Part shown: piece after piece, positions 1 through 34,478 of the stretch
How the letters are laid out: each line of letters starts with the position of its first letter
Position numbering within the stretch: the stretch's first letter is position 1
DNA from: Mayamaea pseudoterrestris
Lineage: Eukaryota; Bacillariophyta; Bacillariophyceae; Sellaphorales; Sellaphoraceae
Direction of reading: 5' to 3'
DNA length: 64,000 nt
NCBI GenBank assembly: GCA_027923505.1
Contig: BROI01000031.1
Location: 165,001 to 229,000 of the forward strand
The notes under the pieces: model-generated
Databases searched by the model: none
Told to the model about the DNA's origin: nothing
What the model saw: only the letters and a program-made list of their open reading frames with translations
Program-made: the position numbers and the translations under genes

Positions 1-1594
1 CTGATTGTGATTGTTGGCTTTATGAAGCAAATGAATCCGACTTGCAGCAGCTTTGGAGCGTAACGAATGGACGAGACGCAAGCTGCAACTTTGACCGACG
101 ACTGACGGCGACGCGCTTGCACATGCGCAAGCGTCAACGTAGCAGCAGCAGCAACGCTTTCGATTATTGGCACGCATAATTTGGCAGTGAAAGGTTGACG
201 CGCGCATCGGGCATCACATGTATTTCGTTCGTTGCAGCAGTCGTGGGAAAAGCATCGATGTAGCGCTCAAGCGACGACGTCAACGGTGTCTGAGTCGCTT
301 CTGCCATTTGGTTCTTGGTTTGCATTGTCAACATTGGCGTTTCATCAATTTCGAACTTGCTGTCATTGTCTCTCCTGCACAGGCTGCGTGACCGTGTGAC
401 GATGGATCTCGAAACAGTTGTTGCCGTGCATGATGACTACTGAAGCGGCTCGTCATGTCGGTGACTGCTGCTGTCATATTTATACCTACCGCTATTTTAA
501 GATCAAGGGGCGGCGCCTTTTGCGACGACTACAGCATTCTCGTCGTTACGTTCGGAAACGCACAAAGGAAAATGTCGACAAGGCTGCCTTGCTTGCTACA
601 GTACAGGGATTGTCGGTGTTTGGCTGTACAGTACACGCCGCCATGTAATGTCGCAACCATAGTTCTCGCTGGTTTTGAACGAACGCGATTCGATTCGAGC
701 TGCCGGCAATTGAACGGGTTGTATACGTACATCCTTTGGAAATGGTCGTTGACCTTTGTATCTGCAACGAGTGCATTGCCAAACGGTCAACAGCCTTGGC
801 GCGCTAAAGTCGCTAGTCACAAGTCACTGATGGATTGTGCCATGGATCAATCTGGCCTTTCTAATAAACAAGCTTTGCGGCTCATTGTCGACGCCTTGAT
901 GGCGATAATCTTGGTTTTGTGAGCGAATATCAACGTGGCGCGAGGCATCAGTCGCAACGTGGATTTCTTGCCTTGCAATTAGTCGATACTCAAAATGGCT
1001 CGTTGTTTGCTCCTGCACCGCTGCAACTATTGCCGCATGTGCGTGAGGTGCGTTGGACCTGTTGATGGGTTGGCGGATGGAAATCACTTTGTTTGATGCA
1101 TGCGTGTGCCACCGAACGGAGTCATAGCATGGACGCACTACTGTTCATTCAACGTGACGAAGTTGATTCCTGCATCCCGAGCAACACGCAGTCGTCAAGC
1201 AACATCGAGAGCCAAGTCTTGTCGTCGTCACTGCTTATTCGAGACGAATGGCTTGTGAAATGATCGGCAGTTGCAATACGTTTTGGCGATTGGCTGGCTC
1301 GAAGAAATTGGCTCGCGGATGGATACGTACGTTATAACTTGATCAATAGCCAATGTATTGCTCTCTCGTTGAATAGGCGCCGTGTCGCTATAGTATGCTC
1401 GTTGTGTAGAAGAAACTATAAGTAGTGTGTAATCCGATAGCGAAACAATAGTTTGTGAGCGCGTTCAAGCATAGCGTGCAGCATGTAAACGACAACCGAA
1501 CGAACGCCTGCGAGTGCCTTGTCGCGTAAATTTTGGCGCGCCATGGCAGTCACATCTTTGACAGCCATTCTCCGTCCTTTCCATCCATCGAAGC
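1..1594. other. No recognisable gene
   Basis: Frames on both strands give only short stretches (up to about 155 codons, 455-922 plus) with no family resemblance, no signal peptide and no splice signals linking them into something longer. The last few hundred bases presumably include the promoter and 5' untranslated region of the Clp gene starting at 1595. I see no tRNA, repeat array or element end here. Confidence 0.5.
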
Positions 1595-4500
1595 ATGAGT
1601 TCGCGACCAAGTCCATGCTCTCTAGTTGGCAGCGTTACTCTCCTCTTGACGCTAGTTCCATTATTGGTACTGGCGTTTGCTCCCAGACGACAGTCAAGTA
1701 GATTCTTTCAATCACATGAACAATATTTGTCTGACTCATTCGCAACAAGATCGTCGTTGCTGCAGCTTCCCTTCAACCAACGACAACCATGCCGCACTTC
1801 ACTGTTCGTCTTTGACCGCATGTCGGAAGACTGCATCGCCGGATTGGTGACGGCCCAGGAGCTGGCGACCAAGTTTGACGCGACAACGGTTGGCACCGAC
1901 TGCTTGCTGGCCGGCTGCTTGGACCATCCCACGCCCAGCTTGCGGCGCACGCTGCAGCAGTACAAGTTGAATTATCGATCGTGTCAGCAAAGTATGCAAA
2001 TATTGTACAATCAAGACAAGAATAACAATCAGCAGCAGCAGGAAGGCTTCCTCATGGGTTTTTCGTTGCGCAAGTCCAACGAGGATCGACCCTTTTCCAA
2101 GTCGGCCAAGGTTTGCTTGCAGCGCGCCGCCAAGTTGAGCAGCAATAAGGATGCAGCAGCGTCGACGATTGAAACGCATCACTTGTTTCTCAGTCTGCTC
2201 GAGTATGATGCTACAACAAGTAATAATGACGCTGCGGCTATACGCAATCCGGAGAGCGACGCCTGGGCCGTGCTGCAGCACATGATGGGCCAAGACGCTC
2301 CATCTGCCGCCACCATTTGCGACTCGCTCGTCCAGCACATGCAAGACCATTCACACAACAACCAGCGCGAGCTAGTCACTGGCGCTAGTGGCAGCAATAA
2401 GACACCGACACTGGCGGAGTGCGGCGTCGACTTGACCGAGCAGGCGCGCGACGGCTTGCTGGATCCGGTGCACGGACGATCAACGGAGATTCGAGCCTGT
2501 CTCCGAACGTTGCTGCGGCGGCGCAAAAACAACGCCGTGCTGCTGGGTGATCCGGGAGTGGGGAGTGAGTATATTAATGTAATAGTAGTGTGTGAGAGTG
2601 TGTGTGAACCGATGTCGTGGGTTGGACTTGGATGGCAAGTTTCGCAACGACAATGAATGCTTGGGAGCAAGCAAAATGTGTTGCTTTGTTCTCTTTCTTG
2701 ACTGGCTCGAGTACTTGTCAACATTGCACACATTGTTGCTGTTGCCATGCTGGACTCATTTTTGCTCGCTTGTCATATATTCGCTACACAGAAACGGCCA
2801 TTGTCGAAGGAATTGCGCAAATACTCGTCGACGAGGATTCTTCGGCTTGTCCAGCCAAACTGCGAGGATATCGACTAATTAGCTTGGAGCTTTCGCAACT
2901 GGTGGCGGGTACAAAGTATAGGGGCGAGTTTGAGGAGCGCCTGCAAGCCATATTGCAGGAGTTGAGTGACCCAAAGGCTCCGCCGACGATTCTGTTCATT
3001 GATGAGGTATGAAAAGTCAAGCGCGTATAGTGTTTGTCAAAGTTTCTAATTCTTACAACATGTCTCCTCGCTTGCTCAAATCAGATTCACAACTTGGTTG
3101 GAGCGGGAGCCGCCGAAGGAGGAATGGATGGAGCAAACATGCTCAAGCCCGCACTGGCACGAGGCCAGCTGCAACTCATTGGCGCAACCACCATTAGCGA
3201 ATATCGCAAGTACATTGAAAAGGATGCAGCTTTGGAACGCCGACTGCAGCCAGTCATGGTCAAGGAGACGACGATTGAACAAACAATTCGCATTTTATAA
3301 GCGGTGCAAAAGAACTACGCGCAGCATCACAAGGTCAAGTTCACGCCGGCTGCCTTGGAAGCTGCGGCAGTGCTGTCGGAACGATACGTCACTGATCGGT
3401 TTCTGCCAGACAAGGCATTGGATTTGCTTGACGAGGCAGGTGCGATTGCGCAGTTGGAAAATGTTGACGACGAGGAAACGCCAGTTGTGACGGAACATAC
3501 CATTGCCGAACTCATCAGTGAAATGTCGGGAGTCCCTATTGGCAAGCTTGAGTCGACGGAGATGACCCGCTTGAGGTCACTGGAGGGTGAGTTGGAAGCG
3601 CGGGTCAAGGGTCAGTCAAAGGCATGCTCCGCCGTTGCTCGAGCGGTTCGTCGTGCTCGATCCGGACTGCGTGACCCCAAGCGACCAGTGGCATCATTCT
3701 TGTTCTGCGGACCCACCGGAACTGGCAAGACGGAACTGTGCAAAACGTTGGCAGCAACGTATTATGGATCGGAAAAGGACATGATTCGAATCGACATGAG
3801 CGAGTACATGGAAAAACACACCGTTAGTCGATTGACTGGGCCACCACCTGGATATATTGGTTTCGACGATGGAGGACAGCTGACCGAAGCAGTCCGCCGA
3901 GCGCCTCACTCTGTAGTTCTTCTGGTAAGATCATTTGGATGTATTGATAAATGTTTGTTCTGTCATCCGCCCCGCTGATACATTGCTTATGCCATTGTTG
4001 CACCAGGATGAGATTGAAAAGGCACATCAAGACGTGCTGAACATTCTGCTTCAAATCATGGAAGACGGCATATTAACGGATGGCAAGGGCCGGACTGTCT
4101 CTTTCAAGCAGACAATACTCGTAATGACAAGCAACGTCGGAAGTGGGCGAATATTGGAAGAGACCAAGAAGTTTCAAGGAGCGGCTGCAGCCATGTCAGT
4201 GTCCGCTCAAGCTCTGCTGTCCTCTGCGCCACTGAAAACGCCGTCTACAACAAAAGCACCCGCCTCGCCAATGTCACCTGAAGATGCCCTCAAGAGACTG
4301 CAAAACAATCCAAAGGCATCCTCCATGCTGTTAGAGGCAGCATCCGATCCCGAGATTATGAATGCGGTGCGGACCGCCATGAACGGGTCTCCAGCGGACC
4401 TGATGGAAGCAAGTCGCAGCAGTCCTACTGTTTCAAAGTTTTTGCAGCGACTATGGGCCGTCATGGAGGAAGATGAGCAAGTTAATCCTACTTCCGACTC

Positions 4501-5152
4501 TGCCGACTCGTCTAATTCAGGTCTGAATGCCATTCGAGCAAGCATTCAAGCGGCTGGCATTGTCAATGGAGCGGCAACCACCAGCACGTCGAAAAACGCC
4601 GGCGTTGGTGCTGGCGCACTCTACTCGCAACTATCTCAAGTCGTCAAGGAGGAACTCGAAACGAAAATGAAACCCGAGCTATTGAATCGCATTGACGAAA
4701 TTATCGTCTTTGCGCCACTCTCCGCATCTGATTTAAACGCCATTGCAAGTCTCATTATTGAAAAGACACTTGCACGCGCACGCACCGAGCAAGACATGAT
4801 TCTGCAGGTGGACCAATGCATTATACGAGAAATTGTGCGCCAAGGAAGCGCCAAGGCGGACCAGTTTGGCGCGCGGCCCATGCGACGCGCCGTGCAACGA
4901 TACGTGGAGGATTCGCTCAGCGATGCCATTATACAAGGTTTCTTGATTAGAAATGACGCGGCGACACTGACACTAGCTGGATTGAACCAAGTGCAAGTGA
5001 AGCGAGACCGTGATGGCGAAGTTTTAGTGGTCAAGGTGGAGGAGTCGAGTGGTATTGACAGTGCTTCCATGACGAGTGCAGCAGCGCCAGTGAATGGCGA
5101 GTCTACTTCGACGACGAGTCAAGTGGAACCAGTTCCAGAGCCGCAGATATAG
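1595..5152 (+). CDS. clpC: Plastid-targeted ClpC-type AAA+ unfoldase with one in-frame stop
   Basis: Hsp100 ATPase that would unfold proteins for Clp protease or plastid import. Four exons: 1595-2564, 2792-3006, 3085-3924, 4007-5152; introns of 227, 78 and 82 nt are all GT-AG, and the first splits the Walker A lysine codon (GDPGVGK). Total 1057 codons with stop. Residues 1-27 are a signal peptide followed by AFAP, the diatom plastid bipartite targeting motif. A Clp-N domain starts near residue 73; AAA+ module 1 has Walker A and FIDE; module 2 has [22 protein letters not shown] and ELLNRIDE. The linker between modules is very short, so the long ClpB coiled coil is absent. A roughly 130-residue insert (about 745-875) in module 2 carries a STI1-like helical segment. 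One in-frame TAA (3298-3300, codon 467) replaces a residue in an otherwise normal alignment; everything after it remains conserved, so it is a very recent loss, an allele or a sequence error. Confidence 0.88.
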
Positions 5153-5326
5153 AGCAGCTTGCGGCAGGCGGTCCATGGAAATCAAGCCACATCCGCTCCT
5201 CTCGCTACCTTTTAGATTAAACGCACATCATAAATACATGCACATAATACTGTTGCACTCGTGTCTGACCTTATAACTTGCATTACTTTCTTTCATTAAC
5301 CCATTTATAGCGCTATTTGTTACCAT

Positions 5327-6009
5327 TTACATTAATGGAGCTGCTTCATGGTTGCTCCAGTCCTTGTCGACGCTGCGAGAGCGAAACAGAAGGTGCAAGT
5401 GTCAGCATGCAATGCAGTCATCGTGTACGGACCATGCGCAGAGAAGGTCAAGCTCGCATTCAATAACATATTATAATTACTCACCAATCACTCGCATGAC
5501 TCAACGCCGGATTATCGTCTCCACTACTCACCAAGCAAAGAACGCCATACAAGCCGGCAAAGGCTCCAAACGCCAACATCCACGTTTGCAGCGCCTCGCC
5601 CGAACTCACGCTCGGCATGTCAAAGTCGAGCGCCAGCTCCGGGGCAACGCCATCGTCCCACAAGGCGTCGTAGTTTTCAATGAGCTGTGTGAATAGTTGT
5701 GAAAGGAATGGTGAGGAAATGAATTCAATACACGAGAGTCAATTTTGTTCGCTCCATTTTGCAAAATCAGTATTAAACTAGCAAAACCAGTTTCTTCCAT
5801 TGTTCATAAATTTCGCGACATACCGACGATTGCTTGGGCGGACTTCGCTTAAAGGCTGGAAGGGGCGGCGTCATGTTTCCCTTGGTCATGCTGGAAGCGT
5901 GAAAGGATCGAAGTGTTGTCAAGGAGTTGCCTGTCGTTTTTGACGACTTTGCAGCAGCGACAAGAGCTAGTCGCTGACCGCGCAGTGCCAATGACGTAGA
6001 GAGTGACAT
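5327..6009 (-). CDS. NDUFB8: Mitochondrial complex I subunit NDUFB8 (ASHI)
   Basis: Accessory single-span subunit of the membrane arm of NADH:ubiquinone oxidoreductase. Three exons on the minus strand: 5824-6009, 5485-5684 and 5327-5372, with introns of 139 and 112 nt (GT-AG); total 432 nt, 143 residues. Residues 1-40 are a Ser/Ala/Arg-rich mitochondrial presequence ending near RSFHAS. The core around YDALWDDGVAPE resembles the plant NDUFB8 core (MWDNGT..PEP), followed by a glutamate-containing EAL motif and one transmembrane helix. The start at 6009 is preferred because it begins the presequence; an in-frame ATG at 6084 would add 25 residues. The last exon is short and rests on splice signals and frame only. 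It is divergently transcribed from the myotubularin gene. Confidence 0.72.
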
Positions 6010-6121
6010 GCTGGATGATGAATGGGAAAAGAAGGCAAGCTGCTGCAGTGATAAAGGCCGCGTGGCTTCAAACCGCACGTCCAATCCTCCATGGTGGAAC
6101 GAGCAGATCGAAGCCTCTGGA

Positions 6122-6161
6122 TGACGTCATTCATGCCGTAGTTAAGGTTCAAGTGACGTCA
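6122..6161. promoter_or_regulatory. Paired CRE palindromes in a divergent promoter
   Basis: Two perfect TGACGTCA palindromes lie at 6122-6129 and 6154-6161, 32 nt apart (about three helical turns), in the 425-nt space (6010-6434) between the divergent NDUFB8 and myotubularin starts. TGACGT is the core bound by bZIP factors and is the known CO2/cAMP-responsive element of diatom promoters. That either gene responds to CO2 or cAMP is inference. Nothing else recognisable occurs in 6010-6434. Confidence 0.5.
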
Positions 6162-6434
6162 TCTTTTCACAGTTAGGGTTCGCGATAGGTGTGACTCGCG
6201 GTTTCCGTGCAACGGTCATCCCACCATGGGGCATTCGAACGGCAGTCGAAAGAAGAATCGTTCGTCGCCGTACCTTTACACTTGATAACCTTGCCGCAGA
6301 TTGACAAGTTAAAAACGAGTTCCTTTCTGCATTGATTCATTCATTCTCCGTGTCACATTATCTGGATTCGTTTCAAGAGTCACAACTCACAACTCACAAC
6401 ACTCCAAACGTACGCTGCCAGCAATTTCAAAGAA

Positions 6435-9407
6435 ATGGCGACTACATCCAACGACGACAACGCCTTTCAATCGGCCCTGGACGAGGCGCAGCAGCTCATG
6501 GACGACATTGACATTCACACGGATGGTGGCGTCGCCGCAAGCTTCACCATTGACGACGATGACGACTATGAAGTGGATGACGACGACGACATGGCGGCAG
6601 CAGATTCAAGCACTACCGGCATTCATCCATTGGCGGCGGCGGCTGCTGCTACTACTGCTACTGAAACTACTATGCACGACAATGGCAGCAATGGCCAGAA
6701 GTTACCCGACGATCCGCTCTCCCTGCTTGCTTCCCAGCCACCGCTCCGCGTTGACACGACATCAGCAAACCTTTACTACACTCCCGCTGCACCAAGTACG
6801 TCTCCCTACTCGTCATCATCATTTAGCAACACCATGGAACTGCAGCAGCAACCACCAGCCTCCCAGCTGCTCAAGCAGCAGGCGCAAAAGTTTGGCAGCG
6901 ACGCCCAGCGCATGGCAGCTTCAATGTTTCACTTGGCGCAGCAGGCGGCGAGCAACATGGCATCGTCACAGGATAATGTTATGATGCATAATAACATGCA
7001 GATGAATACGCAAATGCAAATGCAGCAGCAAATGCAGTTGCAGCAGCAGCAATCATCAAATATAAACACATCTGCTTCCTCCACGCCACCCGAACTGGAC
7101 AAGGAGCAAAAGCTCGAGTTGTTGAAACATGTCGTCGACTTGCTCGAGGGTGAGCAGGTCATTATGTTTCTGAACCATTTGCTGCACGTGAGCGACTCGA
7201 GCGGTCAGTCGTACTACTATCATCCGCATCCGAGTGCAATGGGAATGCAGCAGCAGGTGATTGGCTGCGCCATGACATTTTATCGCGTCATTATATTTGG
7301 TTACGATGAGCAGCAGCAGCTACCAACGAACTCAAGCAGTGGCGCAAGTGACTCTGTTAAAGGCGACGCGACTAGCAACAGTAGTGCCACAATCGTTCCA
7401 TTATTGACTCGACAAGAGCCAGCATTACCACCAGCCGACTGGAATTTCTCGTGCTGGCCCAAGGCTCCCACCAAACTCTTGATGCAGATTCCGCTCTCGA
7501 GCTTGGAGCGCGTGGAAAGAAGTGTCTTTTCGACGAGCAGCAACACAAACATGGGCTCGCCGTCGTCTGGCAATAATAGTAGTAGCAACAGCCATCTACC
7601 ACCCAGCAGCAGCAGCATGATGGGACACGTCTTGACCGGCAAGGACAATCAGCGCGTGCTTCGCATCACCACGGCAAGTTACCAAGACACAACACGGGCG
7701 CACCAGGCGCTGCAAACCTATGCCTTTCCGGGACGACGCAACTTGGGCTACTTGTTTGCCTTTGAGAGTCGACGACTGGAAGTCATGAAGAGTCTGCAGC
7801 AGCAGCCGGCGGCAGTGACGGATCCAACGACACCAACTGGTCAGCAGCAACAGCCACTGGCTCAGTCACCGAGTCCATCCACTACTCCAATTGTGACATG
7901 CGAGCCGACGCGAGCTAGATTCACCATGTCCGAGTTCCAGCGACAACTAGCTCCCGGCAAGCATCCCTGGATGGTGTATCCCACGCTGAACCACCAGTAC
8001 CAGCTGTGCGCATCATATCCTGGCTTGCTACTGGCGGGTCCAGCGTCACTCAATCCGGAAACCAATCTGCAGGCGCGCAATCTACTGATGCAGTGCGCCG
8101 CCTTTCGGAGTGAGCATCGCTTGCCCGTGCTAACGTGGAGCAGCGGCATTGACGGTGCCAGTTTGTGGCGCGCCTCGCAGCCAAAGGTTGGTTTCCAGGG
8201 CAATCGCAGTCCGGCCGATGAGTTGCTGCTGAAGCATGTGCTGGAGGCAGCCGCGAGTGCCAATGCGCTGCAGCATGCGCCTGGATCCATTCCGTTGCTG
8301 AATGTTGCGCAAATGCAGGCACTGACCGGCAATAACATTTCGTTGGAAACAGGGTCTGGTCAACCCTGCCTCAAGATTATGGATTTGCGGCCAAAAAGTG
8401 CGGCCATGGCGAATCGCACCGGCGGATATGGATACGAGAGTGTTTCCAATTATCCTGGAGCGACGATTCAGTTTTGTGGCATTGACAATATTCACAAGGT
8501 GCGCGACGCGTATCACAAGCTGAGCGCCGTGTGCACAAGTCCAACGACGACAGACTTGAACTGGAACTCTCTCGTCGAAGATACCAAGTGGCCGTCCATG
8601 GTGCGACTCTTGCTAGCGGCGGCCTGGGAGTCTGCTTTTTGGATCCAGGTGTATCGGTATCCAGTCTTGTTGCACTGCTCGCATGGATGGGATCGGACAA
8701 GCCAGGTGGCAGCGCTTGCGCAGTTGATGCTGGATCCATTCTATCGAACGCGCGAAGGCTTTTCGACGTTGGTGGAGAAGGATTTTATGAGTTTCGGTCA
8801 TCCGTTTCATACGCGATGCGCTCATGGCGAAGGGCGTGGCGACTCGGGCGGACCGAATGGCACGAGCGTACCGGCGGTTGATGAAGGTCAAATTTCGCCC
8901 ATTTTCATTCAATTTTTGGATTGTGTCTTTCAACTAGTAAATCAGTATCCGGAATGCTTCGAATTCAACACCAAGTATCTGCTGGTCATGAGTGAGCATG
9001 TCTACTCGTGCCGCTTTGGAACGTTTCTGTGCGATACGGAGCGCGAGCGCGAGCTGGTCGCTGGCATTCGACAGAGAACGCACTCGCTTTGGGACTATCT
9101 TGATGGTCGACAGGACGTTGTGAACCATAGATTCAACGCAAAGCAAGCTGGAGGTGTCATGCTCATGCCACTACCTACGCTGCTTCGCAACGTGACGATT
9201 TGGGCGGATCGCCACTGCATGCATGGACCAAAGGCTACAACTCGATGGCTTCCTTTGGGCATTGCGCCTCCAATTGCAAACGTTGCGACGGATCAGCATG
9301 GGTCTCTTGTCACTGCTCACGAGATTCAAGCGCTGATACTTGGTTCTGTCGTAGACTGTCAATCATCTCCAAGCAGCAAGGAAGACGGAGATGCTGATTC
9401 ACCATAA
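6435..9407 (+). CDS. Myotubularin-family phosphoinositide 3-phosphatase
   Basis: Single-exon, 990 residues. Residues 1-220 are low complexity (acidic, then Gln/Ser-rich). A PH-GRAM-like region follows (about 230-430), interrupted by Ser/Asn-rich inserts, then the phosphatase domain (about 480-960) with the TRARF and KHPWMVYPT-type segments, the conserved DLRPK strand and the CX5R loop LLHCSHGWDRTSQ with catalytic Cys748. Myotubularins remove the 3-phosphate of PI3P and PI(3,5)P2 on endosomal membranes. The usual loop is CSDGWDRT; here the first Asp is His, while the second Asp and the Arg are kept, so activity is likely but specificity may differ. No FYVE or C-terminal PH domain follows. The first ATG after the CRE promoter was chosen as start. 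Confidence 0.9.
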   Translation: MATTSNDDNAFQSALDEAQQLMDDIDIHTDGGVAASFTIDDDDDYEVDDDDDMAAADSSTTGIHPLAAAAAATTATETTMHDNGSNGQKLPDDPLSLLASQPPLRVDTTSANLYYTPAAPSTSPYSSSSFSNTMELQQQPPASQLLKQQAQKFGSDAQRMAASMFHLAQQAASNMASSQDNVMMHNNMQMNTQMQMQQQMQLQQQQSSNINTSASSTPPELDKEQKLELLKHVVDLLEGEQVIMFLNHLLHVSDSSGQSYYYHPHPSAMGMQQQVIGCAMTFYRVIIFGYDEQQQLPTNSSSGASDSVKGDATSNSSATIVPLLTRQEPALPPADWNFSCWPKAPTKLLMQIPLSSLERVERSVFSTSSNTNMGSPSSGNNSSSNSHLPPSSSSMMGHVLTGKDNQRVLRITTASYQDTTRAHQALQTYAFPGRRNLGYLFAFESRRLEVMKSLQQQPAAVTDPTTPTGQQQQPLAQSPSPSTTPIVTCEPTRARFTMSEFQRQLAPGKHPWMVYPTLNHQYQLCASYPGLLLAGPASLNPETNLQARNLLMQCAAFRSEHRLPVLTWSSGIDGASLWRASQPKVGFQGNRSPADELLLKHVLEAAASANALQHAPGSIPLLNVAQMQALTGNNISLETGSGQPCLKIMDLRPKSAAMANRTGGYGYESVSNYPGATIQFCGIDNIHKVRDAYHKLSAVCTSPTTTDLNWNSLVEDTKWPSMVRLLLAAAWESAFWIQVYRYPVLLHCSHGWDRTSQVAALAQLMLDPFYRTREGFSTLVEKDFMSFGHPFHTRCAHGEGRGDSGGPNGTSVPAVDEGQISPIFIQFLDCVFQLVNQYPECFEFNTKYLLVMSEHVYSCRFGTFLCDTERERELVAGIRQRTHSLWDYLDGRQDVVNHRFNAKQAGGVMLMPLPTLLRNVTIWADRHCMHGPKATTRWLPLGIAPPIANVATDQHGSLVTAHEIQALILGSVVDCQSSPSSKEDGDADSP

Positions 9408-9809
9408 AAGCATGATAGATAGAAATGCATTGCTTTAGACGAATGACAACTTGGTTGACTGATATTATGTAGATAGTATGGCTCCTGCTCAAGGCGAAAT
9501 AAAGACCTGCACCGTCGCTGGTGCCAGTAAGTTTCGCTGATGCATCCTTGCAAAATAAGCTTGTATGCGAACACATTGTATTGTAAATAGGACGGTGCCA
9601 CTGCCTTCAGGAATGTAGTTTTGTTTATTACAGCCAACTGTTGCTGCGCGATAGCTGACGTCGTACTGGTACTTTTGCGACACGATGCGAGGATGCTCCT
9701 CCACAGATCGAAACGGATGAGATGACAGCGACATTCGTCACAACCTTTCTTTCTAAGATTGATGACATTTTGATACCAATTTACACAACTATCTATCAAC
9801 CATTGCATC
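9408..9809. other. Intergenic, no feature seen
   Basis: 402 nt between two plus-strand genes. A minus-strand frame runs through much of it but extends back over the myotubularin 3' end and has no family resemblance. No repeat, RNA gene or clear motif was found. Confidence 0.4.
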
Positions 9810-11647
9810 ATGAGCGATGCTGCTCAAATCCAGCTTCAGCGTGGAGACTATGTCTTGCTGACGGCTGGAGAGCACGACGGAAAATATGGGTACATGTTGG
9901 ATTGGGCTTGTGATTATGATTCTCAGCAAACGGCACGGCATCGCGTCGTCATTGACGAGATATTTTCCTATAGTAGCTCGCCGATACGAAAGAGGAAGCC
10001 TCTTGTTGTTAAGAAGCAGGGTAAAGACTTAGAGTTGATTCGCACGATGATGACTTCTATTCGCCTGAGCATTTGCGATTTTGTTGCTACAAAATTTCCC
10101 TGTCATGGATTTGCTACATCGAAAAAACCTCTTAAACTGGATTTGGAAACGCCGTACGGCAAGATGAATCGTCCTTCCATTAAAGAGCTTCCAGGAATAC
10201 AAAGGGAAGATTCTGTCTTCATAGATACAGCAAGTGAATCGCTGTACAGAGACATATTCCATGGTACCAATCTAGTGGTTGAATGGATGCATGTCTTCCC
10301 CGACGATCTTACTCTCGAAGCATGCTCGCCCTTGTTTGTCGCGACACTGTTTGAGAAGCAAGCGGACGGTAATCTTGTAGAAGTGGGACTCGTCACCTTT
10401 TGTCCAGAGGTCGATAAGAGAAGCAAAGCACTAAGTCACGAAATCAGCGACGATCTTTCGGACCCCCGTTTTCAAAAGCTCACACCAAGTCAAAATCGTG
10501 CTCTGGTTGCGCGAGTGTTTCACATGATCTGTCGACTGAGCGGCCACGAGCTTGGAATCAGCACTTTTCGCTATGTGACCAGCTATCTGAACGAACTTTA
10601 CTTGGGACGAGAATGTATGGAGGAGTCGCTGGATCTTGCAGTCATCTTGGCAGACATGGATTCACAAACTAGATCGAAACGATGCTTGGCCATACAGCTG
10701 ACAAGAGTCGCTACGTGCATGGAGGCGTGCTCCATGTTCCATGAGGCTGCTTTACTGTATGGGCAAGTTGCTGACTTTTACAAGGCCGAGAAACGCAAAG
10801 ATGATCCCGTTAGTCTCAAGTTTGAAAAGTCTCTTCTTCCAGAAATTTTGGACCGCGAGGTTTGCGAGCGCTGCGCTCAGGGTCGGGCGTATACGAGCGG
10901 CCGTGCTTGGGCAAACGGTGAAGGTGCGTTCGTTGCGGCATTCTCACGAATCTTTAAAAGCTTACCTTTGAATGATGCTATTAATGAACCAATGCTGTGG
11001 ATAGGGATTGATTGTCTCTTAAAACTGTACCAAGGTTGGGTGAGTGATTTACCTGACGGAGCAGCTGCCGAGATTGTTAATGACGTTTGGCACCTCTTCG
11101 CTGCCGCAGTCAATATTTTTATTACCGCTGACGACAGCGAGGGGACAGCCCATAGAATTCACGAGCACTTGAATGATAGAAGGCGGATGACTAAAACTCT
11201 TCAAAAAGCTTTCATGGCAGGTTCGGTCTCGTCCTTTCGCGCCGCCGTTTGTGCGTGGAAACGACCTAATTTGGTGATTCCTATCCGCCGGATCGCATGT
11301 GACTCTGACAAGGCAATGCAAGAGGCGCGCAATACTATGTTTGATGGCTGTGACCCTCGAAAACTGGCGCTTAGCTGTGGCAATGAAAATTGTGAATCTG
11401 CTGAGCAATATGTTGAGCAACATAAGCTGTTGAAATGCACGCAGTGTCGCAGCATCCAATATTGGTGAGTACTAAATGGCGCAATAAAAATATCATGGTG
11501 GGCGACGTATAACATCTCAAATTCGCATTCACACTTATTACCAGTTCGAGGACATGCCAGAAGGCCGATTGGAAGATGCACAAGGCTTATTGCAAGCGGA
11601 TCGCTGCCAAGTTGGCCGAAACCAAATCTACTATCGGTGAAAAATAG
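9810..11647 (+). CDS. MYND zinc-finger protein of unknown role
   Basis: Two exons, 9810-11464 and 11545-11647, separated by an 80-nt GT-AG intron; 585 residues. Most of the protein is alpha-helical sequence I do not recognise. The C-terminus is a MYND zinc finger: CGNENC, then CTQC, WCSRTCQ and HKAYC, the Cys/His spacing of the family. The intron lies inside the finger, right after the Trp of IQYW, and splicing restores YWCSRTCQKADWKMHK, which is good support for the exon pair. MYND fingers bind proline-rich partners, often in transcription factors, SET methyltransferases and assembly factors. No SET domain is visible, so the enzymatic role, if any, is open. Confidence 0.82.
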
Positions 11648-12031
11648 TTATTCTTCTTTTTTGTCTCGTGCCTGCCCCTTTTCGCCACATAAAAATGCCA
11701 CAAATTGCTACTGCACCTCTTGCCAATTTTTCTGCTGACAGTACGTTGTCCTACTCATTGCCGTTCCACTGACAGCTTTGCGACGCCCATGCGAAGTCGC
11801 CCTGAATAGGTTACTAATTTACAACTAATGTGTAGATTTAACGCCGATCGCATAATTCACTTGTGTGTATGGATTCAAGCTTATTTAGGCCAAGCTTAGC
11901 CATAAAGATGCGTCAGATAACGTTGCATCATATGCTGTCGGCCAAATGCGTATCAAGCGTATCAGACGACAATAACAATCCATAAAATGTTTGAAAATAC
12001 TATGAAAAATAGAATACTGAGTCAATCCGCG
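11648..12031. other. Intergenic between convergent genes
   Basis: 384 nt between the ends of the MYND gene (plus) and the VTC gene (minus), AT-richer than its surroundings. It should hold both polyadenylation regions. No repeat or RNA gene is visible. Confidence 0.4.
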
Positions 12032-14393
12032 CTAAAGAATGCCAGGCGCATCTTGCTTGGCAATCTCCACTAGCTTTGTGAGAAAATTCACTGCCAGCAC
12101 AACGCAGAGGCACCAGCCAAGCACCATGGGGCCAAATACATCATCCCATCTCGTAGGAATTCTGTTTTTGATGCGCTCACTTCTCCATAAAAATGTATTG
12201 AGAGCATAAATGCAAAAAGCTAGCGAGATGGGCAATAAGCAAAGAGCGTACCACTCGCCCCAAGTGCTTCCGGACTCGTCGCTGAATGCCAGGACCCCAG
12301 CCGCAATCGTTGAGAGGACAACCGCGTGGTGCAACCAATGTAGAAAGGTACGCTCGTTTGCAAAGAATACTTTTGGTTCAATCTTCTGTACCCCTGTGGG
12401 AGCAAGCAAGGTCTCGTTGTGGGAGCTACAAAAAGGGAAGCACCAACTGCTGCAAACACCATCTTCCTCTTCCTCGTCTCCCAAAAAGTCGTCCTCATCA
12501 TCGTAAAATTTGGCACCGTTTTGGTTGTCATGCAGCAAAGGAGCCCGTTCGCCGACCAAACCCGAAGCCGATGCCCTATCGGCAGCCGTGCGACCAACGG
12601 CAATAAGACTTCGATCATTGACCGTCGAACCGAACGGCAACAAGTGACTGTAGACTTCATTGGCACCAGCTCCGACGCCGACACTTTCATCCGCCAAAAT
12701 GCGCTGTCCCTCCGAGTCAATGATGGACTGGCGCAAACTCACATCATCCACCCAGTATGGCACTGCCTGCACATCCTCCGGCAGCAAAACGGCGCAGCCA
12801 TGAACATACTTGGAATACTTGTGACACTCGTAAAGGAGTCCCGAATTTTGCAGATCCGTCACCCACTTGGGAGGCACCATCGTATCACCCTTGAGCTCCA
12901 GCTTGATCTCCAAAACGGCATGCGGAAAGCGATGAATCTCATTCTTCTCCAGTACCCATTCTGGATCGCGATGCCAAACCTTCATGTCCTGCAAGTCATA
13001 GCCTCGTTCCGAAATCATGCAAAGGTTCGTATCCAGCGAGACGCGCACGGTAGCATCGAACGGAATCTGAAACGCCGTGCGCATGCACTGCGTCCGCATG
13101 GTGGGAACCAGTTGCTTGGAGACGCAGACTTGGGTAATTTCGCGAACAAGCGTCTCCCACTCGTCAGCTTCCTTTTGCGACTTGCCCTTGGCAAGCATTT
13201 CCTTCTTCTTTTGTGCAATCGGATATGTGTTTGTCAAGACTTGGTGGACTTCCGATTCCTTGATCTGCGCGAAACGACGACGGAACGAATGGTCGAATTG
13301 TTAGCGCCCATACTCAAGCTTCCACAATATAACTCATAAGAATAATGATCTTGCACTCACCATGAAGCGCTCCTTGACCGAAACCTCACCCGTCCAACTA
13401 TCATTATGCGTCTTGCGCTCAACAAAAACGACGTCCGGATCACCCGGTCCATACCAACGCAACCTCAAAGCAATCGCTCCCGGCAACTTTTCCAATCGCC
13501 CATGATACAACTCCAACTGATCATTATCAACATAAACACTATTCGTAAACTGACTATCCGACTCCCCCGTCGACGTTTTCTGCAAAAACACTGGCAAGTG
13601 CCTTAGCACGGCGTACTTGACGCGCGAAACGTCCTCCGTCTTGACCCAGTACTTGCTCGTGCTGCGGCTAAAGGACTGCGTCGCTTGGTCGGCTTCCTGC
13701 GCCACATGATCCTCGCGGCAGGTGGCGTAAATGTTGGACAGTCGCACGACAATGTCCGAGTAGTCGCCCCGCACCCAGGCTTGCGCGTGCAAGCGATTGA
13801 CGTAGAAAGCCTTGCAGGCCAAGTTGGGAAGGTTCTTGTCGTGCTTTTTGAGAATTTTGTGAAAGCCCATGAAATTGATATTGACATACATTTCGAGCCG
13901 CAAAAAGTCATTGGCAATTTCATCCGCCGCCACTAAAACCTGCGCCGGCTGGAATCGCTTGGCATCGTTGATTTTGAGTTCCGTTTCGGAAATCTTGTTC
14001 CGCAGCTCCGTGACCTTTTCCAAAGTAAACGTTTCCACCTTGATCATTTCCGACTCTAATAGGCGCAGAAAGTGTTCCTCCGTCACGTCCACGTGCGACG
14101 TGTCGAGGCCCTGCGCGTTGGTTTGCGGAGGCGCCGTCATGCTCACGACGCGATTGTTCTCAATGGCGCTAAATGATAATGATGAAAAGGGAGAGAACAG
14201 GAGGAGAATGAATTAGACATTAATATCATCCACTCATTTAATGCATTAACCGTACCACATCAAACGAAACATACCTCGACGGCTTGACCTTTGCCAGTTG
14301 CGAAATGGTTTGATCGAGCGTCTCGTACTGCAAGTAAACATCGGGTCCGTACTCGGGCGCAATGTTCGCCTTTAAATGTTCTCCGTACTTCAT
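12032..14393 (-). CDS. VTC4: SPX-VTC polyphosphate polymerase (VTC4-like)
   Basis: Makes inorganic polyphosphate from ATP and moves it into vacuole or acidocalcisome. Exons on the minus strand: 14275-14393, 13361-14168 and 12032-13264, with introns of 106 and 96 nt (GT-AG); 719 residues. The N-terminal SPX domain begins MKYGEHL, the typical SPX start and the reason for choosing 14393 over an upstream ATG at 14438; it senses inositol pyrophosphates. The central VTC tunnel domain shows LRLRWYG, VFVERKTH, RVSLDTN and AVLEIKL, strands that carry the nucleotide- and phosphate-binding basic residues and the metal-binding Glu. The C-terminus has three transmembrane helices of the DUF202 type. All three modules in one chain match yeast Vtc4 and Vtc2/3; the conserved basic residues favour a catalytic Vtc4-like protein. 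Confidence 0.9.
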
Positions 14394-15053
14394 CTCTTTT
14401 GCAATTAGTTGGAAAGAATGTACTGTTTCAATTTGCAAAAAGAAGCTGCCTTTTGATCCTGCGGCAGAAACAGCTCGATCAAGATTCTCGTGGTGCGCTG
14501 CCTCCGCACTTCCAAAAGCGCGCGCCAGCGCGGTCGAATCTCGCCGAATCTTATTTTGAACGAGAGAGTTAGAGATCGAGATATCACTAGCTTGAACCCT
14601 AAAACTAACACCATTGCTACGAAACGTGACTGCTGTTCACGAATGCGGCCCAAGACGCTTCCCGTGAGCCGTGGCTGTTTTCCCAAACCTATGTTTACTC
14701 ACAACAATGACCCAAGATACTGCATCATTAACACTGCGGCGAACAACATCCAGCATAATCCCGCTAGCTGTTGAAGCCATGAGACATTCTACGATCACGC
14801 AAAGCCTACTTCAGGATTATTTGGGTAGACTTTCGACTCACAAACCGCGCGGAATTGCTCAGGCCCAGACACATTGCGGGACCGCTTGCGGCAAGTCATT
14901 CTTAGTAGCACTATTTTTTGTTGGTGTCATTCAACCACAAACGCAATTCATGCGAAGCGACAGCCCGCTGTGATCAACCTTCACGCCATACAAGCAAGTC
15001 AAGCTTCCACCATCATTTTCAGCGTGACCACACTGGACCACGACAAGGCTAGA
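14394..15053. other. Divergent intergenic region
   Basis: 660 nt between the VTC start (minus) and the G8 protein start (plus). It must contain both promoters. The G8 frame stays open upstream to 14874 but the extra 60 codons have no signal-peptide character. I searched for a phosphate-starvation GNATATNC element and saw no convincing copy. Confidence 0.4.
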
Positions 15054-18000
15054 ATGACACACCAGCATACACTCATCCTCATTTGTTTATCAATCATCTT
15101 TCACTCAACGCAAGCATGCGGCAATAGTCCAAACCAGCGAGTCCTCATTCAAGTCGACGCGACGAAACAGTCCCTCCGCTGCCGCAAAGTTCAACAAAAT
15201 CCCAGGCAGCTTTGCTCACTTTTCGATTTAAGATCCGGTAAACGCCTCCGCCAGATTTGTCGAGACCAATGTCGACGCAAGTGTCAAGCGAGTATTGATA
15301 CTACTGCAGATATTGTTGGCCAAGCGCGCGCGTTGCTGCCACCCATTCCGCCAGGTCCTTATATTACGACAACGAGCAACTCTAAGGTTGTTTCACTGCC
15401 CGATCCACCGACGCCAAGACTCGTGCAAAACACGGCGCGCACCAACTGCCCGCATTTGCAGACTGGCTTAAAGAGTTGGCATGATGCCAGCATTTGGCCA
15501 AACGCCACCATCCCCAAGGCGGGGGCGTACGTGACGCTGCCAATCAACACCAAGGTGGTCGTTTTGCAAAAGGTGGTTGAGAAACTGGGCATTATTACGG
15601 TTCCTGCCTCGAGTGAGTTGATCATTGGAGAGAATCTTAACGGAATTAGCTTGATGGCCAAGGGCATGACTGTCAAGGGCAAGCTTACCATTGGTAGCGA
15701 AACCTGTCGGATTGAAACACCAGTAACAATTACACTTTGGGGCAAGCGACCAACTAACGCGGTGCAAGTAGTGCCGAGTCCTTCCGTCAAGGGCATTTAC
15801 GTGACTGGCACGCTCAGTTTGCATGGCAAGCGCTACTTTTCCACCTGGTCGCGTCTCGCCAAGACGATTCAAGCGGGCGAAAGCGTTTTGCTGTTGCAGC
15901 GGCCCGTCAACTGGGAGCGAAATCAAAAGGTAATTTTGACAACGAGTATCATTTACGACTCTCGCTCCTACCATCAGAATGAAATTGTGACGGTGGATCG
16001 ACTTGCAACAACTCCTCCGACTGGCGTTGGCGCAGTGGTGTATCTGCAGCGGCCAGTCCAATACAAGCATACCGCCAATCGGTATTACCAAGTCGAAGCA
16101 GGTTTGATTACGCGCACCATAAAGATTCAAGGTGCTTCGACCGACTCGGAGCCGACCGATTTGGACCCGCTCAATTGCCGTACAAGCGGCTACGACCCGT
16201 GGAGCTTTTACTACAACATGACTGCGCCATGCATGGGTCGGCAACAAACTGGCTACGGTGGGCATGTCATGGTGACCGGCACTGGCACTGCGCAAGTTGA
16301 AGGCATTCAATTGTATCGCATGGGACAAACCAACGTTTTGGGCCGTTATCCGATGCATTTCCATTTGCTCGGCGACTGCCCGTCCTGCTATTTTCGCGAC
16401 TCTTCCATCCAGCGATCCTTTTACCGCTGCATTTCCGTGCATGGTACCAACAAGGCGACAGTCTCGGAAAATGTAGCCTTTGACGTTACCGGATATTGCT
16501 ATTATTTGGAAGATGGCGTGGAAGAGGACAACACCCTTTCCTTCAACCTCGCGGCGCACATTCACACCATTGGTCCGGACCTTCCGACGGGTCCCAGTCA
16601 GCGCACAAGTGACTATGACCAGACGGCAGCAGTTGGTGTAGAGCTGACAAACCCAGCAGACGTGGCGGCATCTGGCTTTTACATACCCAACGTGCACAAC
16701 AACATTATCGGCAACGCAGCTTCGGGTGGTTGGGCTGGATTCGCCTTTCCCGTACTTGACACGCCGCTTGGTCTGCACAAAAAGGTCATGCTGCGTCCAG
16801 GAAGCGCCAACGGACTAACCATTGACGGCAACACGGCACATTCGACTGGCTTCTGGTGGAAACATGCCGCAGGATTTTATTTGGGCGGTACATTTTACTA
16901 TAAGTCTGATGGCAATCTGCGTTATTCCGCAGGCCGTGTCGACTTTGGCCGCGGCGCTCGAATGCCTTGTGCCATTTACAACGACTGCGTTGGAGGCAGC
17001 TGCAAGTGCAGGGAAGAGAATGATCGACCAATCAACATTACAAACACCAAGACGTTTCTCACTGCTGGTGTTGGCCTCAACTCATGGAGCGGCATGCTAA
17101 ACGTCAAAGGCTTTGAAGCGCATGACCAGCGGCTGGCGATTGAAGCACTCTCCAAGGGTTTCTGGCTTGACAACTTTTACGCAGCGTGCCGCACTGGCCA
17201 AGATCTTGGCATTCCATCGCCAGGATCCGCAGGTAACTTGGAAGGAAGTGGCTTCAACTGGTACGACACCACCCAGAGTCACATTATCTCCAACGCCGTC
17301 TTTGAGAATTGTGGATATCGATCCACCGACTACGACCAATATGACACTTCATCCACGCGTGGCTGCGGCGACAGCTCCGACATTGCCAAGGGATGCAGCG
17401 ACACATCCACCACCTTTGGCTTTGTCACTCACTCGGATAGCAACATTCCAGAAGTGATGCAGGCAACCAAGGGGCTCACGTTCACCGACTGCGGTCGGCG
17501 GTTTCGATACACGGTCAATGATCACGACACGGTCAGCGGTCGCTGCCAAAATTGGATTGACGTTGATGGATCAGCGTCGGGCTTGAATGAGCCAGCGTTC
17601 ATTGCGTCGGGTCTTGACAGTGTCAAGGATTGGTGGGGCGTTGATGATGATGTTGTGTTTGACGAGCAAGGTCCAGTCAGCTTTATCAAAAAGAACAATG
17701 GACCGGATCGAGGTTTAGCCAGTGTTCGATTCTCGTGGGACGAAGCGTTGCATGCTGGGACTGACGTTGACTACTGCTTCAATGGCGATCCTGGACCTTG
17801 TCCTATACAAGGATACCTTCGCCATTTGGGATACAAGTTTAGTCCATCTCAATCGGGCGCTGGTCCAGGCATGCCGGTCACGGCCAATCCGGATACAACC
17901 GGCATGGTCGGAGGCTACGGCTGGGTCTTGAAACTGAACGGCGGAGCCCCTCGCGACTTGAACATGACAGAAATTGAGGTTGCTCCAAACAACATGCTGT

Positions 18001-18509
18001 TGCTGAGCATTGCCTATCCAGTCGGCACAGTATTCACAGTGACAGCCAACGCCGAGAGCTGGTGCAAACCTCGCGACGGCTCCATCTCCTGCCGCGAAGT
18101 CATGTCGGCCGTCAACTCGGTCGACCTTGTCCGCAACGGTGACGGCAATACGTACTACGTTGACGCGAACGGCGTCTTGACGATGCGACTCTTCGTCACT
18201 CGCACCTGGACGGGAGATCCAAACTGGCTGGGCGTGCCGTCGTGGAACACGCTGACGCGCGACAATATCAACTACGCCGTTCCTCGCTTCGATCGCGCCA
18301 ACATTAAGCTTCTCAACTTTGGCTACGCATCCTTTCGCATTCAAGCGTCTCAATGCGGCGGAGGAAGCGGCACCTTTTGCAGTGGTTCCGTTTCCGATTA
18401 CGATCCAAACGTTTGTCCGTCGGGTTACAGGCAGGTTGCCTATGATTCATGTTGCAGTCAATCGAATCCTTCCCAGTGTGTCTTTGCCGACGGAACCACA
18501 ACGAATTGA
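15054..18509 (+). CDS. Secreted G8-domain / parallel beta-helix protein (CEMIP/PKHD1L1-like)
   Basis: Single exon, 1151 residues from the ATG at 15054, which opens a signal peptide (hydrophobic core LILICLSIIF, then a likely cleavage near TQACG). A G8 domain spans about residues 131-240 (SWHDASIWPN onward), followed by a right-handed parallel beta-helix region containing GRYPMHFHLLGDC and EDGVEEDN, segments shared with animal CEMIP/TMEM2 hyaluronidases and fibrocystin-like proteins. The C-terminus is Cys-rich (CGGGSGTFC, CCSQSNPSQC). No transmembrane helix follows, so the protein is probably secreted or wall-bound. Family members act on or bind extracellular polysaccharide; a hyaluronan substrate is unlikely in an alga, so the substrate is unknown. 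Confidence 0.8.
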   Translation: MTHQHTLILICLSIIFHSTQACGNSPNQRVLIQVDATKQSLRCRKVQQNPRQLCSLFDLRSGKRLRQICRDQCRRKCQASIDTTADIVGQARALLPPIPPGPYITTTSNSKVVSLPDPPTPRLVQNTARTNCPHLQTGLKSWHDASIWPNATIPKAGAYVTLPINTKVVVLQKVVEKLGIITVPASSELIIGENLNGISLMAKGMTVKGKLTIGSETCRIETPVTITLWGKRPTNAVQVVPSPSVKGIYVTGTLSLHGKRYFSTWSRLAKTIQAGESVLLLQRPVNWERNQKVILTTSIIYDSRSYHQNEIVTVDRLATTPPTGVGAVVYLQRPVQYKHTANRYYQVEAGLITRTIKIQGASTDSEPTDLDPLNCRTSGYDPWSFYYNMTAPCMGRQQTGYGGHVMVTGTGTAQVEGIQLYRMGQTNVLGRYPMHFHLLGDCPSCYFRDSSIQRSFYRCISVHGTNKATVSENVAFDVTGYCYYLEDGVEEDNTLSFNLAAHIHTIGPDLPTGPSQRTSDYDQTAAVGVELTNPADVAASGFYIPNVHNNIIGNAASGGWAGFAFPVLDTPLGLHKKVMLRPGSANGLTIDGNTAHSTGFWWKHAAGFYLGGTFYYKSDGNLRYSAGRVDFGRGARMPCAIYNDCVGGSCKCREENDRPINITNTKTFLTAGVGLNSWSGMLNVKGFEAHDQRLAIEALSKGFWLDNFYAACRTGQDLGIPSPGSAGNLEGSGFNWYDTTQSHIISNAVFENCGYRSTDYDQYDTSSTRGCGDSSDIAKGCSDTSTTFGFVTHSDSNIPEVMQATKGLTFTDCGRRFRYTVNDHDTVSGRCQNWIDVDGSASGLNEPAFIASGLDSVKDWWGVDDDVVFDEQGPVSFIKKNNGPDRGLASVRFSWDEALHAGTDVDYCFNGDPGPCPIQGYLRHLGYKFSPSQSGAGPGMPVTANPDTTGMVGGYGWVLKLNGGAPRDLNMTEIEVAPNNMLLLSIAYPVGTVFTVTANAESWCKPRDGSISCREVMSAVNSVDLVRNGDGNTYYVDANGVLTMRLFVTRTWTGDPNWLGVPSWNTLTRDNINYAVPRFDRANIKLLNFGYASFRIQASQCGGGSGTFCSGSVSDYDPNVCPSGYRQVAYDSCCSQSNPSQCVFADGTTTN

Positions 18510-19026
18510 TGAAAATGTTGAGAACTGCTATATTTTATATGAGCCGACGAGATGCTATATTTTGAATGAGCCGATGAGATGCTCCAAAGCTCCCTTGTGT
18601 AAAATAGTCTTTTGTATATTAATAGCCTCTATAGTAAACCAGCTACCGCTTCGTATAAGAGTGACGATTTGAAGTAGTAGGAAGTCTGGCTGGCGTCACG
18701 AATCCAACAAGGACTGGTCGTCGGAATCGAAGGGCATGCTACGAGTCGTCGAGCTCAAATGAGCAAGCACGCTCATTGAGACTTGATGCTGGTAGAGAAA
18801 CAAAAAAGATACAATGCAACAAGTGAAGAATGGAATAGCATATAGGGCAGTTCATACTCCTGTTAAGTGCTCGCTTTACACTCGTGCAGATTGGCGCGGA
18901 CTCTCGACCGCTTCGCTTTCCGTCACGCTCGTTTGTCAAGCAAGGAATCAAGTACAATATAAAAGAGCAAGACGCGACAAGAAAGTTACAAGACTCTGCA
19001 ATTTACATATATTCGATTATCAAATC
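18510..19026. other. Intergenic with a short tandem repeat
   Basis: 517 nt between plus-strand genes. The PCCA frame is open upstream to 18814 but the added residues do not resemble a targeting peptide. Apart from the 27-bp repeat just after the G8 stop, nothing is recognised. Confidence 0.4.
18526..18579. repeat. 27-bp imperfect tandem duplication
   Basis: Two adjacent copies of a 27-bp unit beginning TGCTATATTTT and ending with a GAGCCGA.GAGA stretch, at 18526-18552 and 18553-18579, differing at a few bases; a fragment of a third follows. It sits in the 3' untranslated region of the G8 gene. Confidence 0.7.
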
Positions 19027-32295: not shown

Positions 32296-34267
32296 TCATA
32301 ACCGGGTGACATCTCGCCCAAAGACGTAGCTCTTGATCCAGTCAAAGGTTACAAGCACGCGGTTTCTGGTCGCAACCTGCTTTACTAGATAGACACTCCG
32401 CCAAAGAAGGAATGAAATGCTTCCCGCATAGCTCAAAATTGGAACGTCACCAATTTCAATCTGACTCAATGCTTCGCTGCCTCCGACATAGGCAAGGAGC
32501 CCAAGATTCAAAAAGTCAAACTCTGCAGCTTGTTCGAGACCCCGAAGTCGCAACCAGTTTGCCATTATAGTTGTATCATTCTTGGGAATGGTCGGCGGTG
32601 TCGTCGTCATGTCGTAACCACGATCGAGCAAGCGAGCCGCAAAGGCACCCTGTTGACCAGCGACTTGAGCCGTTTGTGGCAAGTATTTTCCGTTGTCGTC
32701 AGCGTCAAACGCGGCAGCATCGCCCAAAACTAGTACACTACCAGTCTCGGCAGTCGGTGGGACGGGGCAGCGCATCCACTTGTCGACAAAGACTCTGCCG
32801 TTTGGTCCGCGAGCTTCATCGGGCAGCATGTCGAGCAGCTTGGCCACGAACGGACTCGGCCCGACACCAGCGGCCCAAACAGTCAGACCATTCAGCAATA
32901 GTTCCTGCTTTCCAGTATACTTGTCCTTGAGCTTAATGTAGCCGTCGCCACATTCCTCAACGTAAGTATCAAGCCTCACGTCAACCCCTTGTTTACGCAA
33001 GGACTTTAACGCATGCGTTCGCAGGTTTGGGTCAAACTGCTGCACCAGCTCGTTTCCACCGTGTATCAACACAATGCGAATGTCGTCGCGTAGCTTGGAA
33101 AAGACTCCAACCCTTGGTTTCGTCGTATCACGAAAAAAGTCCGACAACTCGCCGGCCAATTCACAACCCGTTGGTCCTCCTCCAACAATGCAAAAGGTCA
33201 CTCGACGCCTTCGCTCCTGCTGTCGCTCACGTCGCTCCGTTTCACTGAAACGCCGCCCCGTCAGCGAATCCTCGTCGCAACATACATCCGGCCGACTGGC
33301 ATACTCCAACGACTCGCCAATGGCGTTGCGCAGCTTCTTGGCGTCGTCGCACGTTTTGAGGCGCAAACAGTATTGAGCGGCGCCCTTGACGACGGCGTCA
33401 TTCACCCTGCTGCCCACCGCCACGACGAGCTTGTCGTAGCGAATCGATATTGGCAACGGTGCACCATTCCGCGTCGACGTTAGTAGCGACTGCAGCTGCA
33501 CTGTCACAGTTTGCTGCTCCAAATTGACGCCAACGGCCGTGCCTTCGATATATTGATGCAGCAGCGGATTCGCGGCACGAATGGCTTCCGTCATGCTGCG
33601 GTACTCCACCGTGCCGACGCAGGCGGAACTGAGCATGGGCGTAAAGACAAAGTGGTTGGTCGGCGATACGACAATGATGCGCAGCTTGGTCGTGTCGGCC
33701 ACCTTCAAGAGTGCGTGCGCCGCCCAGCCACTGCCGAGAATCAACACGGTTGGTCGAGTGTCGGATGATAACGTTTCGTTACCAGAGAGCAAGTTCTCTG
33801 GAACCCATCCGAAATTGTATGGCAGTCGCTTCAAATGAGCCACGGCATCTGTCAAGATTGAAAGGCGAAGGATGAAATTCAAAATATGATTGTCGATTCA
33901 ATATCTTTGGCTTTGGCTCCAGCATTGATTTGAAACGGCATCAAATCAAGCAATACATACCTTCCGCTGTATCAATGACTCTTCCTGAAATGGTTGCCAG
34001 AGGAAGTTTTGGTTTGATAGCTGGTGGTATTGGCTCGTCGTGATGATTGGCGCCTTGCGTCGAATTCTTCATTGCAATATCGTTTTTGGTCGTTTTCTCC
34101 GTCGTGGACGAGCTCATTGACAAGCCAGTCTCCTTGGCAAACGACAAGAAACGCTTTCGAAACGCTGGTAGCGCGGTTGCGGCTCCGTTTCGTCCTTGAC
34201 GAAGGAATGAAGATGACGGAATGGATGTCACGCTCCATGCGCGAGCCAAGGGAAGCAAGGCGATGCT
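32296..34267 (-). CDS. Type II NADH dehydrogenase (NDH-2), 5' end split by a Copia element
   Basis: Non-pumping flavoprotein oxidising NAD(P)H and reducing quinone. Exon 2 is 32296-33848 and the retained part of exon 1 is 33961-34267, with a 112-nt GT-AG intron. Two Rossmann motifs, VLILGSGWAAHALL for FAD and FCIVGGGPTGCELAGEL for NADH, then VWAAGVGPSPF, VLVLGDAAAF and LPQTAQVAGQQG, typical of NDH-2, and a C-terminal amphipathic end. The sequence before the intron (RFLSFAKE and the basic region preceding it) looks like an organellar presequence. At 34267 the frame meets the terminal repeat of Copia element A; the rest of the host exon lies beyond it at 39394-39476. No ATG lies between the repeat edge and the presequence in this frame; the repeat offers only a GTG in frame (34307-34309). 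Confidence 0.85.
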
Positions 34268-34478
34268 TGTTGGATCTAGAATATATCTTGCGCGCCCTTG
34301 AAGCGACACTAATGATTAAGCAGAACAGAGTCAATAAAACCACTTTACTTATTTTCTCCAAGAAGTGATCGTCCTCGATCCACTCCTTCGGTTGCCGCTT
34401 ACCGCGCTTACTTAAATGTGACCGTCTTCGTGACGTCACCGCTGCCGCTTCGGTTTGGGTTCTCATCCATGCTCAACA
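34268..34478 (-). repeat. Terminal repeat (3' LTR) of Copia A
   Basis: 211 bp, TGTTGGATCT...TGCTCAACA, identical in layout to 60579-60789. It contains a TGACGTCA palindrome (34431-34438) about 40 nt from its transcription-upstream edge. It reads in the same direction as the NDH-2 gene immediately downstream. Confidence 0.9.

Follow-up and report, generated by a model that had tools for sequence, protein, structure and literature searches.

The window, a 64,000-nucleotide stretch of contig C31 of the diatom Mayamaea pseudoterrestris, whose genome encodes silicon transporters in keeping with a diatom, carries near its beginning a four-exon Hsp100 gene on the forward strand (1595-5152), with a reading frame of 1056 codons. 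The splice sites were chosen by visual inspection so that GT-AG borders are obeyed and the motifs of the family restored, and the three introns recognised in this way measure 227, 78 and 82 bp. Exon 1 (1595..2564, +) encodes a signal-peptide-like stretch with VLAFAPRR, a divergent N-domain and the first AAA+ module (D1) up to Walker A, and exon 2 (2792..3006, +) continues D1 with the remaining part of Walker A, the pore motif KYRG and Walker B. Exon 3 (3085..3924, +) comprises the end of D1, a D1-D2 junction without M-domain, and Walker A and the pore motif GYIG of the second module (D2). The end of the D2 Walker B, sensor 1, a large insert, the Arg finger, sensor 2, the D2-small domain and the C-terminal tail follow in exon 4 (4007..5152, +).

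A second copy of the gene lies about 29 kb away on the opposite strand (C31:137963-134407, -), within an 18-kb inverted segmental duplication (window 932-18897 versus C31:138633-120657, 90.9% identity). This paralogue is open over 1061 codons (1061 aa) and carries the same insert; a search of the 30.6-Mb genome found the insert core at these two copies only. The copy in the window is interrupted by an in-frame TAA (codon 467; 3298..3300, +) upstream of the insert, at a position where the intact paralogue has GAA. The two copies differ here by two adjacent bases, one of which is the last base of the preceding codon. As the gene model contains this single in-frame TAA and the paralogue reads GAA, a reassigned stop code was rejected. 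Downstream of the TAA, 29 of 122 changes between the copies are nonsynonymous (expected fraction 0.72, P 2e-28), and dS and dN between the two copies amount to 0.21 and 0.026, respectively. The TAA may mark the window copy as a young pseudogene, or it may be due to a polymorphism or to an error in the assembly. In the first 5 kb of the duplication, over which the two arms were compared, four runs of 72-226 bp are free of differences, which suggests gene conversion. The duplicated segment also harbors a 990-aa myotubularin-like phosphatase ORF (6435-9407; PF06602, E 9.5e-106). Elsewhere in the window, the stretches 34265-35259 and 60579-61567 are each about 99% identical to C31:120524-119533 and represent a repeat of roughly 1 kb.

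When the insert was removed from the query, the best solved match was B. subtilis ClpC with 616 bits, compared to 602 bits for the best ClpB chain. A midpoint-rooted tree contained an 84-tip node (support 0.97) that joins the diatom pair with 80 of 80 bacterial ClpC-type loci and excludes the three ClpB-type genes of the diatom genome; this tree leaves out cyanobacterial and plastid ClpC, and its bacterial set, the best 80 of at least 584 relatives, was picked by similarity to the query. The NCBIfam models speak against an assignment to ClpC: ClpB was the top match of the paralogue with 749 bits (cut-off 1232), and ClpA reached 653 bits (cut-off 993), both thus remaining below cut-off, while a ClpC model was absent among the 25 of 26 matches listed. 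A Foldseek search with a model of exon 4, which omits the exon-3 half of D2 and was aligned with 40 of 79 prepared bacterial segments, had Clp and Skd3 chains among the 50 matches listed.

In both copies, the Walker A, Walker B and pore motifs of both modules, sensor 1, the Arg-finger region and GAR are kept, and the ATPase and pore motifs are intact. The region between the modules spans 22 residues, compared to 70-79 residues in 77 of the 80 bacterial loci, so the M-domain (UVR) is missing, and this is the case in both diatom copies. The bacterial ClpC-type loci L103, L129 and L132 have 19-23 residues at this position and are also without M-domain; their docking motif is kept. A Clp_N domain was not recognised either, as no Pfam family matched the first 269 residues of the paralogue at E<=0.01.

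From MTSN at sensor 1 to NRIDE, both copies comprise 192 residues, compared to 41-58 (median 53) in the 80 bacterial loci. This leaves an insert by which the usual loop is exceeded by about 140 residues (aa 738-879; 4193..4618, +) and which lies entirely within exon 4. The original prediction had placed it at 4200-4630, correct to within a few codons, and had estimated about 130 extra residues; the insert itself is real, but by the length comparison this figure is somewhat too low. In the comparison of the two copies, 15 of 36 changes within the insert are nonsynonymous (0.71 expected, P 1.9e-4), and the same holds for 5 of 15 changes within its STI1-like core (0.74 expected, P 0.0012). For the linkers and for a short helix behind the core, each taken alone, the constraint is not significant. 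The insert is coding and under purifying selection, which argues against an intron. Among viral contigs, exon 4 as query gave 35 loci with relatives, whose matched spans of 72-540 bp are too short for the insert, and a part of exon 3 gave 16 loci with 41-44% identity. The core as query against the genome contigs of a prokaryote collection returned 215 pattern matches and zero relatives; the collections scanned for the insert were of viruses and prokaryotes only and say nothing on other diatoms.

In ClpA and ClpC, the site of the insert is occupied by the ClpP-docking loop. A ClpP-docking motif of the form [VILMAF]G[FL] is present there in 79 of the 80 bacterial relatives, the exception being L148, and a motif count did not find it anywhere in the stretch from sensor 1 to NRIDE in either diatom copy. 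In the alignment with ClpC chains (query minus insert), and judged also from the loop sequences and the motif count, FQGA (4172..4183, +) is the segment that aligns with the hydrophobic-G-F docking motif of ClpC. Three further triplets of the stretch, SGL, AGI and AGV, have G in the middle and end on a hydrophobic residue, and ClpP docking could proceed through another segment of this kind. A review describes ClpC and ClpD as requiring their IGF motif for binding to the Clp core, and ClpB3 as devoid of it (PMC7966870). As the docking motif is present in 79 of 80 relatives and gone from both copies of the diatom gene, the insert has replaced the ClpP-docking loop on the exit side of the second ring. 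The site had initially been regarded as that of a short loop, which holds true for the relatives but leaves out that the docking motif sits there; neither this nor the TAA upstream of the insert was part of the original prediction. Its expectation that the segment would be found at the pore or peptide side was not borne out, since the alignment puts the STI1-like segment at the ClpP-docking face. This placement shifts the likely role from that of a co-chaperone of the ATPase to exit-side client handling or docking.

Because M-domain and docking motif are missing and Pfam recognises no Clp_N domain, the results support a ClpC-derived AAA+ protein of plastid type rather than an ordinary ClpC. 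With ClpC/Hsp93, the class-1 Hsp100 of bacteria and plastids, it shares two AAA+ modules with their motifs as well as the sequence match to, and the grouping with, bacterial ClpC; it differs from them in the three missing elements and in the insert of about 140 residues. The notion of a plastid ClpC with an insert, from which the analysis started, is supported as to plastid type and ClpC descent, but the protein is not an ordinary ClpC, and a stop breaks the reading frame of the window copy. Plant ClpD is likewise a plastid ClpC relative without UVR motif; however, it keeps the IGF motif, and the account of ClpD in that review mentions no STI1 segment (PMC7966870). The diatom protein also resembles ClpB, in which ClpP docking is lacking (ClpB3, PMC7966870) and whose NCBIfam model is its top, albeit sub-threshold, match. 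In contrast, the three ClpB-type genes of the genome have a long M-region (155-163 residues versus 30 in the insert protein, by the motif measure of our script), and their loops from TSN to NR comprise 39-42 residues.

Within the insert, Pfam, profile scores and AlphaFold2 delimit an STI1/DP-like core with five predicted helices (aa 766-834; 4277..4483, +). The original prediction had recognised an STI1 pattern by eye and had proposed a profile search. In this search, the core had STI1/DP (PF17830) as the best of the Pfam families listed, with E 0.003 and 0.0035, but the scores of 17.9 and 17.7 bits missed the gathering cut-off of 29.1 bits. A whole-genome search with PF17830 at E<=1 did not recover the insert core, and single- and two-sequence searches against the PDB sequences found no STI1 chain at E<=10. 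The scores obtained with STI1 profiles, on the other hand, lay beyond those of shuffled sequences. The score of the insert was reached by 0 of 3000 shuffles with a profile of four STI1 domains and by 0 of 5000 with a profile of five, likewise when the prolines were fixed, and at 10.5-25.5 it falls in a range similar to that of true STI1 members that had been left out of the profiles (9.9-21.3). A comparison by hhalign gave E 6e-5 with a probability of 65%; when the columns were shuffled 200 times, the probability never exceeded 9.6%. The STI1 domain of the genome that is nearest to the core belongs to a protein encoded on contig C12, and the pairwise score of 62 between the two was reached by 0 of 5000 shuffles. 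When this closest domain was removed, the profiles still scored 10.4-13.0 bits, which 2-3 of 5000 shuffles reached; a profile of the C12 domain and Tic40 scored 12.7 bits (0 of 5000 shuffles, or 2 of 5000 with prolines fixed). The direct pairwise similarity to Tic40 is weak, its score being reached by 79 of 5000 shuffles. Much of the profile support thus comes from the C12 domain, which belongs to this very genome, but not all of it. As judged from the sequence, the resemblance to STI1 domains exceeds chance, and the core very likely represents a divergent STI1-like domain, albeit not a formally accepted member of the family.

Of the structure prediction that had likewise been proposed, for the whole chain, the insert and exon 4 were covered. 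From the two insert sequences, AlphaFold2 predicted helices at residues 41-49, 52-62, 65-76, 79-88 and 90-109 of the model, each started by a proline and lying in blocks of moderate confidence (pLDDT 75-86), and the model of exon 4 shows the five helices again. Foldseek gave no match to an STI1 fold: with the whole 165-aa model of the insert, nothing was returned at E<=0.001, and an STI1 chain was absent among the 50 of 223 matches listed. Five short helices with prolines at their starts are also described for the STI1 domains of Hop/Sti1 (DP1 and DP2), Hip, Sgt2 and ubiquilin (PMC8010706); most STI1 domains described there come after TPR domains, whereas the diatom segment is located in a loop of an AAA+ module. 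STI1 domains are portrayed as a helical hand whose groove takes up hydrophobic or amphipathic helices (PMC8010706, PMC13083955), and internal placeholder sequences can occupy this groove (PMC13083928). The short helix predicted behind the core (aa 847-857; 4520..4552, +; block pLDDT about 69) might, speculatively, be such a groove-filling placeholder segment.

Plastid-targeted proteins of diatoms are described as starting with a signal peptide and an ASAFAP-type site with Phe at position +1 (PMC4329603). Read by eye against such a site, the hydrophobic stretch at the N-terminus is followed by VLAFAPRR in the window copy and by TLAFAPRR in the paralogue, from which we infer that the protein may be located in the plastid. 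The genome encodes ClpP at five loci, with a weak sixth match, as well as ClpS and Tic110; ordinary parts of the Clp and import machineries therefore exist beside the insert protein. Red-lineage algae also encode clpC in their plastids (PMC4226036). A search of the assembly for a psbA-type match found none, and as far as this search shows, the plastid genome appears to lie outside the assembly. The C12 protein that contributes the nearest STI1 domain (L064, from about 522; G000:C12 near 582000-583200) has two SAP/ARMET-like stretches and the STI1 domain at its C-terminus, and the best solved match of this domain is Tic40 (2LNM, E 2.4e-5). The protein is a candidate for a soluble counterpart of Tic40. 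It carries a FIVQP-type site and ranks as the diatom's second STI1 protein of plastid type. The insert core shares with Tic40 the pattern of helices spaced by prolines, and its closest relative in the genome is of the Tic40 type; however, Tic40 is a separate, membrane-anchored protein of the inner envelope, whereas the diatom segment resides in cis within an AAA+ module.

We favor a reading to which we would give about an even chance, namely that the gene pair encodes a nuclear, ClpC-derived, plastid-type double-ring threading ATPase that is uncoupled from ClpP, with the M-domain missing and, in place of the ClpP-docking loop, a tethered STI1/DP-like domain that is most similar to domains of the Tic40 type. 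The ring would pull a polypeptide through its pore by means of the intact pore loops and ATPase sites, and the threaded polypeptide would not be delivered to ClpP. Six STI1-like hands, held by flexible linkers rich in Ala, Ser, Thr and Pro, would encircle the second ring's exit, where hydrophobic or amphipathic segments would be caught as they emerge. These segments would then be held for folding, for membrane insertion or for a hand-over to Hsp70/Hsp90 or Tic110. The loss of ClpP binding, the hexamer and the capture of clients at the exit are inferred from sequence and would each be part of this working. Six hands at the exit together with the lack of a ClpP-docking motif suggest that a threaded protein may be held or handed on, and not degraded.

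Other roles of the segment are conceivable. As initially proposed, it might act as a Tic40-like co-chaperone in cis and stimulate the ATPase of its own ring, in the manner assumed for Tic40 and Hsp93. Tic40 as the best solved match of the C12 domain fits this view, as does the coordination of Hsp93 activity by Tic40 described in a review (PMC5296341); however, the segment aligns to the docking face and not to the entry side, STI1 domains are assigned the binding of client helices (PMC8010706, PMC13083955), and the direct similarity to Tic40 is weak, so that we regard this role as unlikely. We are similarly doubtful about the insert being a new docking platform, which would bind another partner, such as an altered ClpP/ClpR ring, Tic110 or Hsp70/90, in place of the IGF pocket of ClpP. 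Such a platform would agree with the position of the insert at the docking site, with the binding of amphipathic helices in STI1 grooves (PMC13083955) and with the presence of ClpP genes and Tic110 in the genome. A neutral expansion, in which the insert would be helical filler without function, situated in a surface loop of two redundant genes, could account for the low-complexity linkers without significant constraint of their own, for the sub-threshold STI1 match and for the stop in one copy; but the purifying selection on the core, a profile score beyond 5000 shuffles and the loss of the docking motif from both copies make it improbable. An unrecognised intron or a plain pseudogene, for which the in-frame TAA of the window copy might speak, is rejected as highly improbable, as the paralogue is open and codon-level constraint acts on the insert as well as downstream of the stop; the three recognised introns, of 227, 78 and 82 bp, also speak against an intron.

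Among the matches listed in our literature searches, none joined ClpC, an STI1 domain and a diatom, and none dealt with an STI1 domain inserted into an AAA+ protein or ClpB, which is no proof of absence. The ClpP-uncoupled threading ATPase that we favor allows a broader, and rather tentative, proposal: by exchanging the docking loop of ClpC for a Tic40-type STI1 domain, diatoms might have made a dedicated non-proteolytic plastid motor that unites the motor and an exit-side co-chaperone in one chain. This would be a natural split of the pulling function from the protease function, in import or membrane insertion. It is disputed whether Hsp93/ClpC powers import into plastids or serves mainly to supply the Clp protease; a review presents both models and describes the use of ClpP-uncoupled Hsp93 to test them (PMC5296341). 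For the heterokont Nannochloropsis oceanica, one study did not find Tic40 (PMC3499364), and another reported it in a haptophyte (PMC4226036). A natural ClpC derivative in which an STI1-like domain replaces the docking loop would be a ready test case for the dispute on import versus proteolysis, and it could bear on how algae of the red lineage work without a canonical Tic40.
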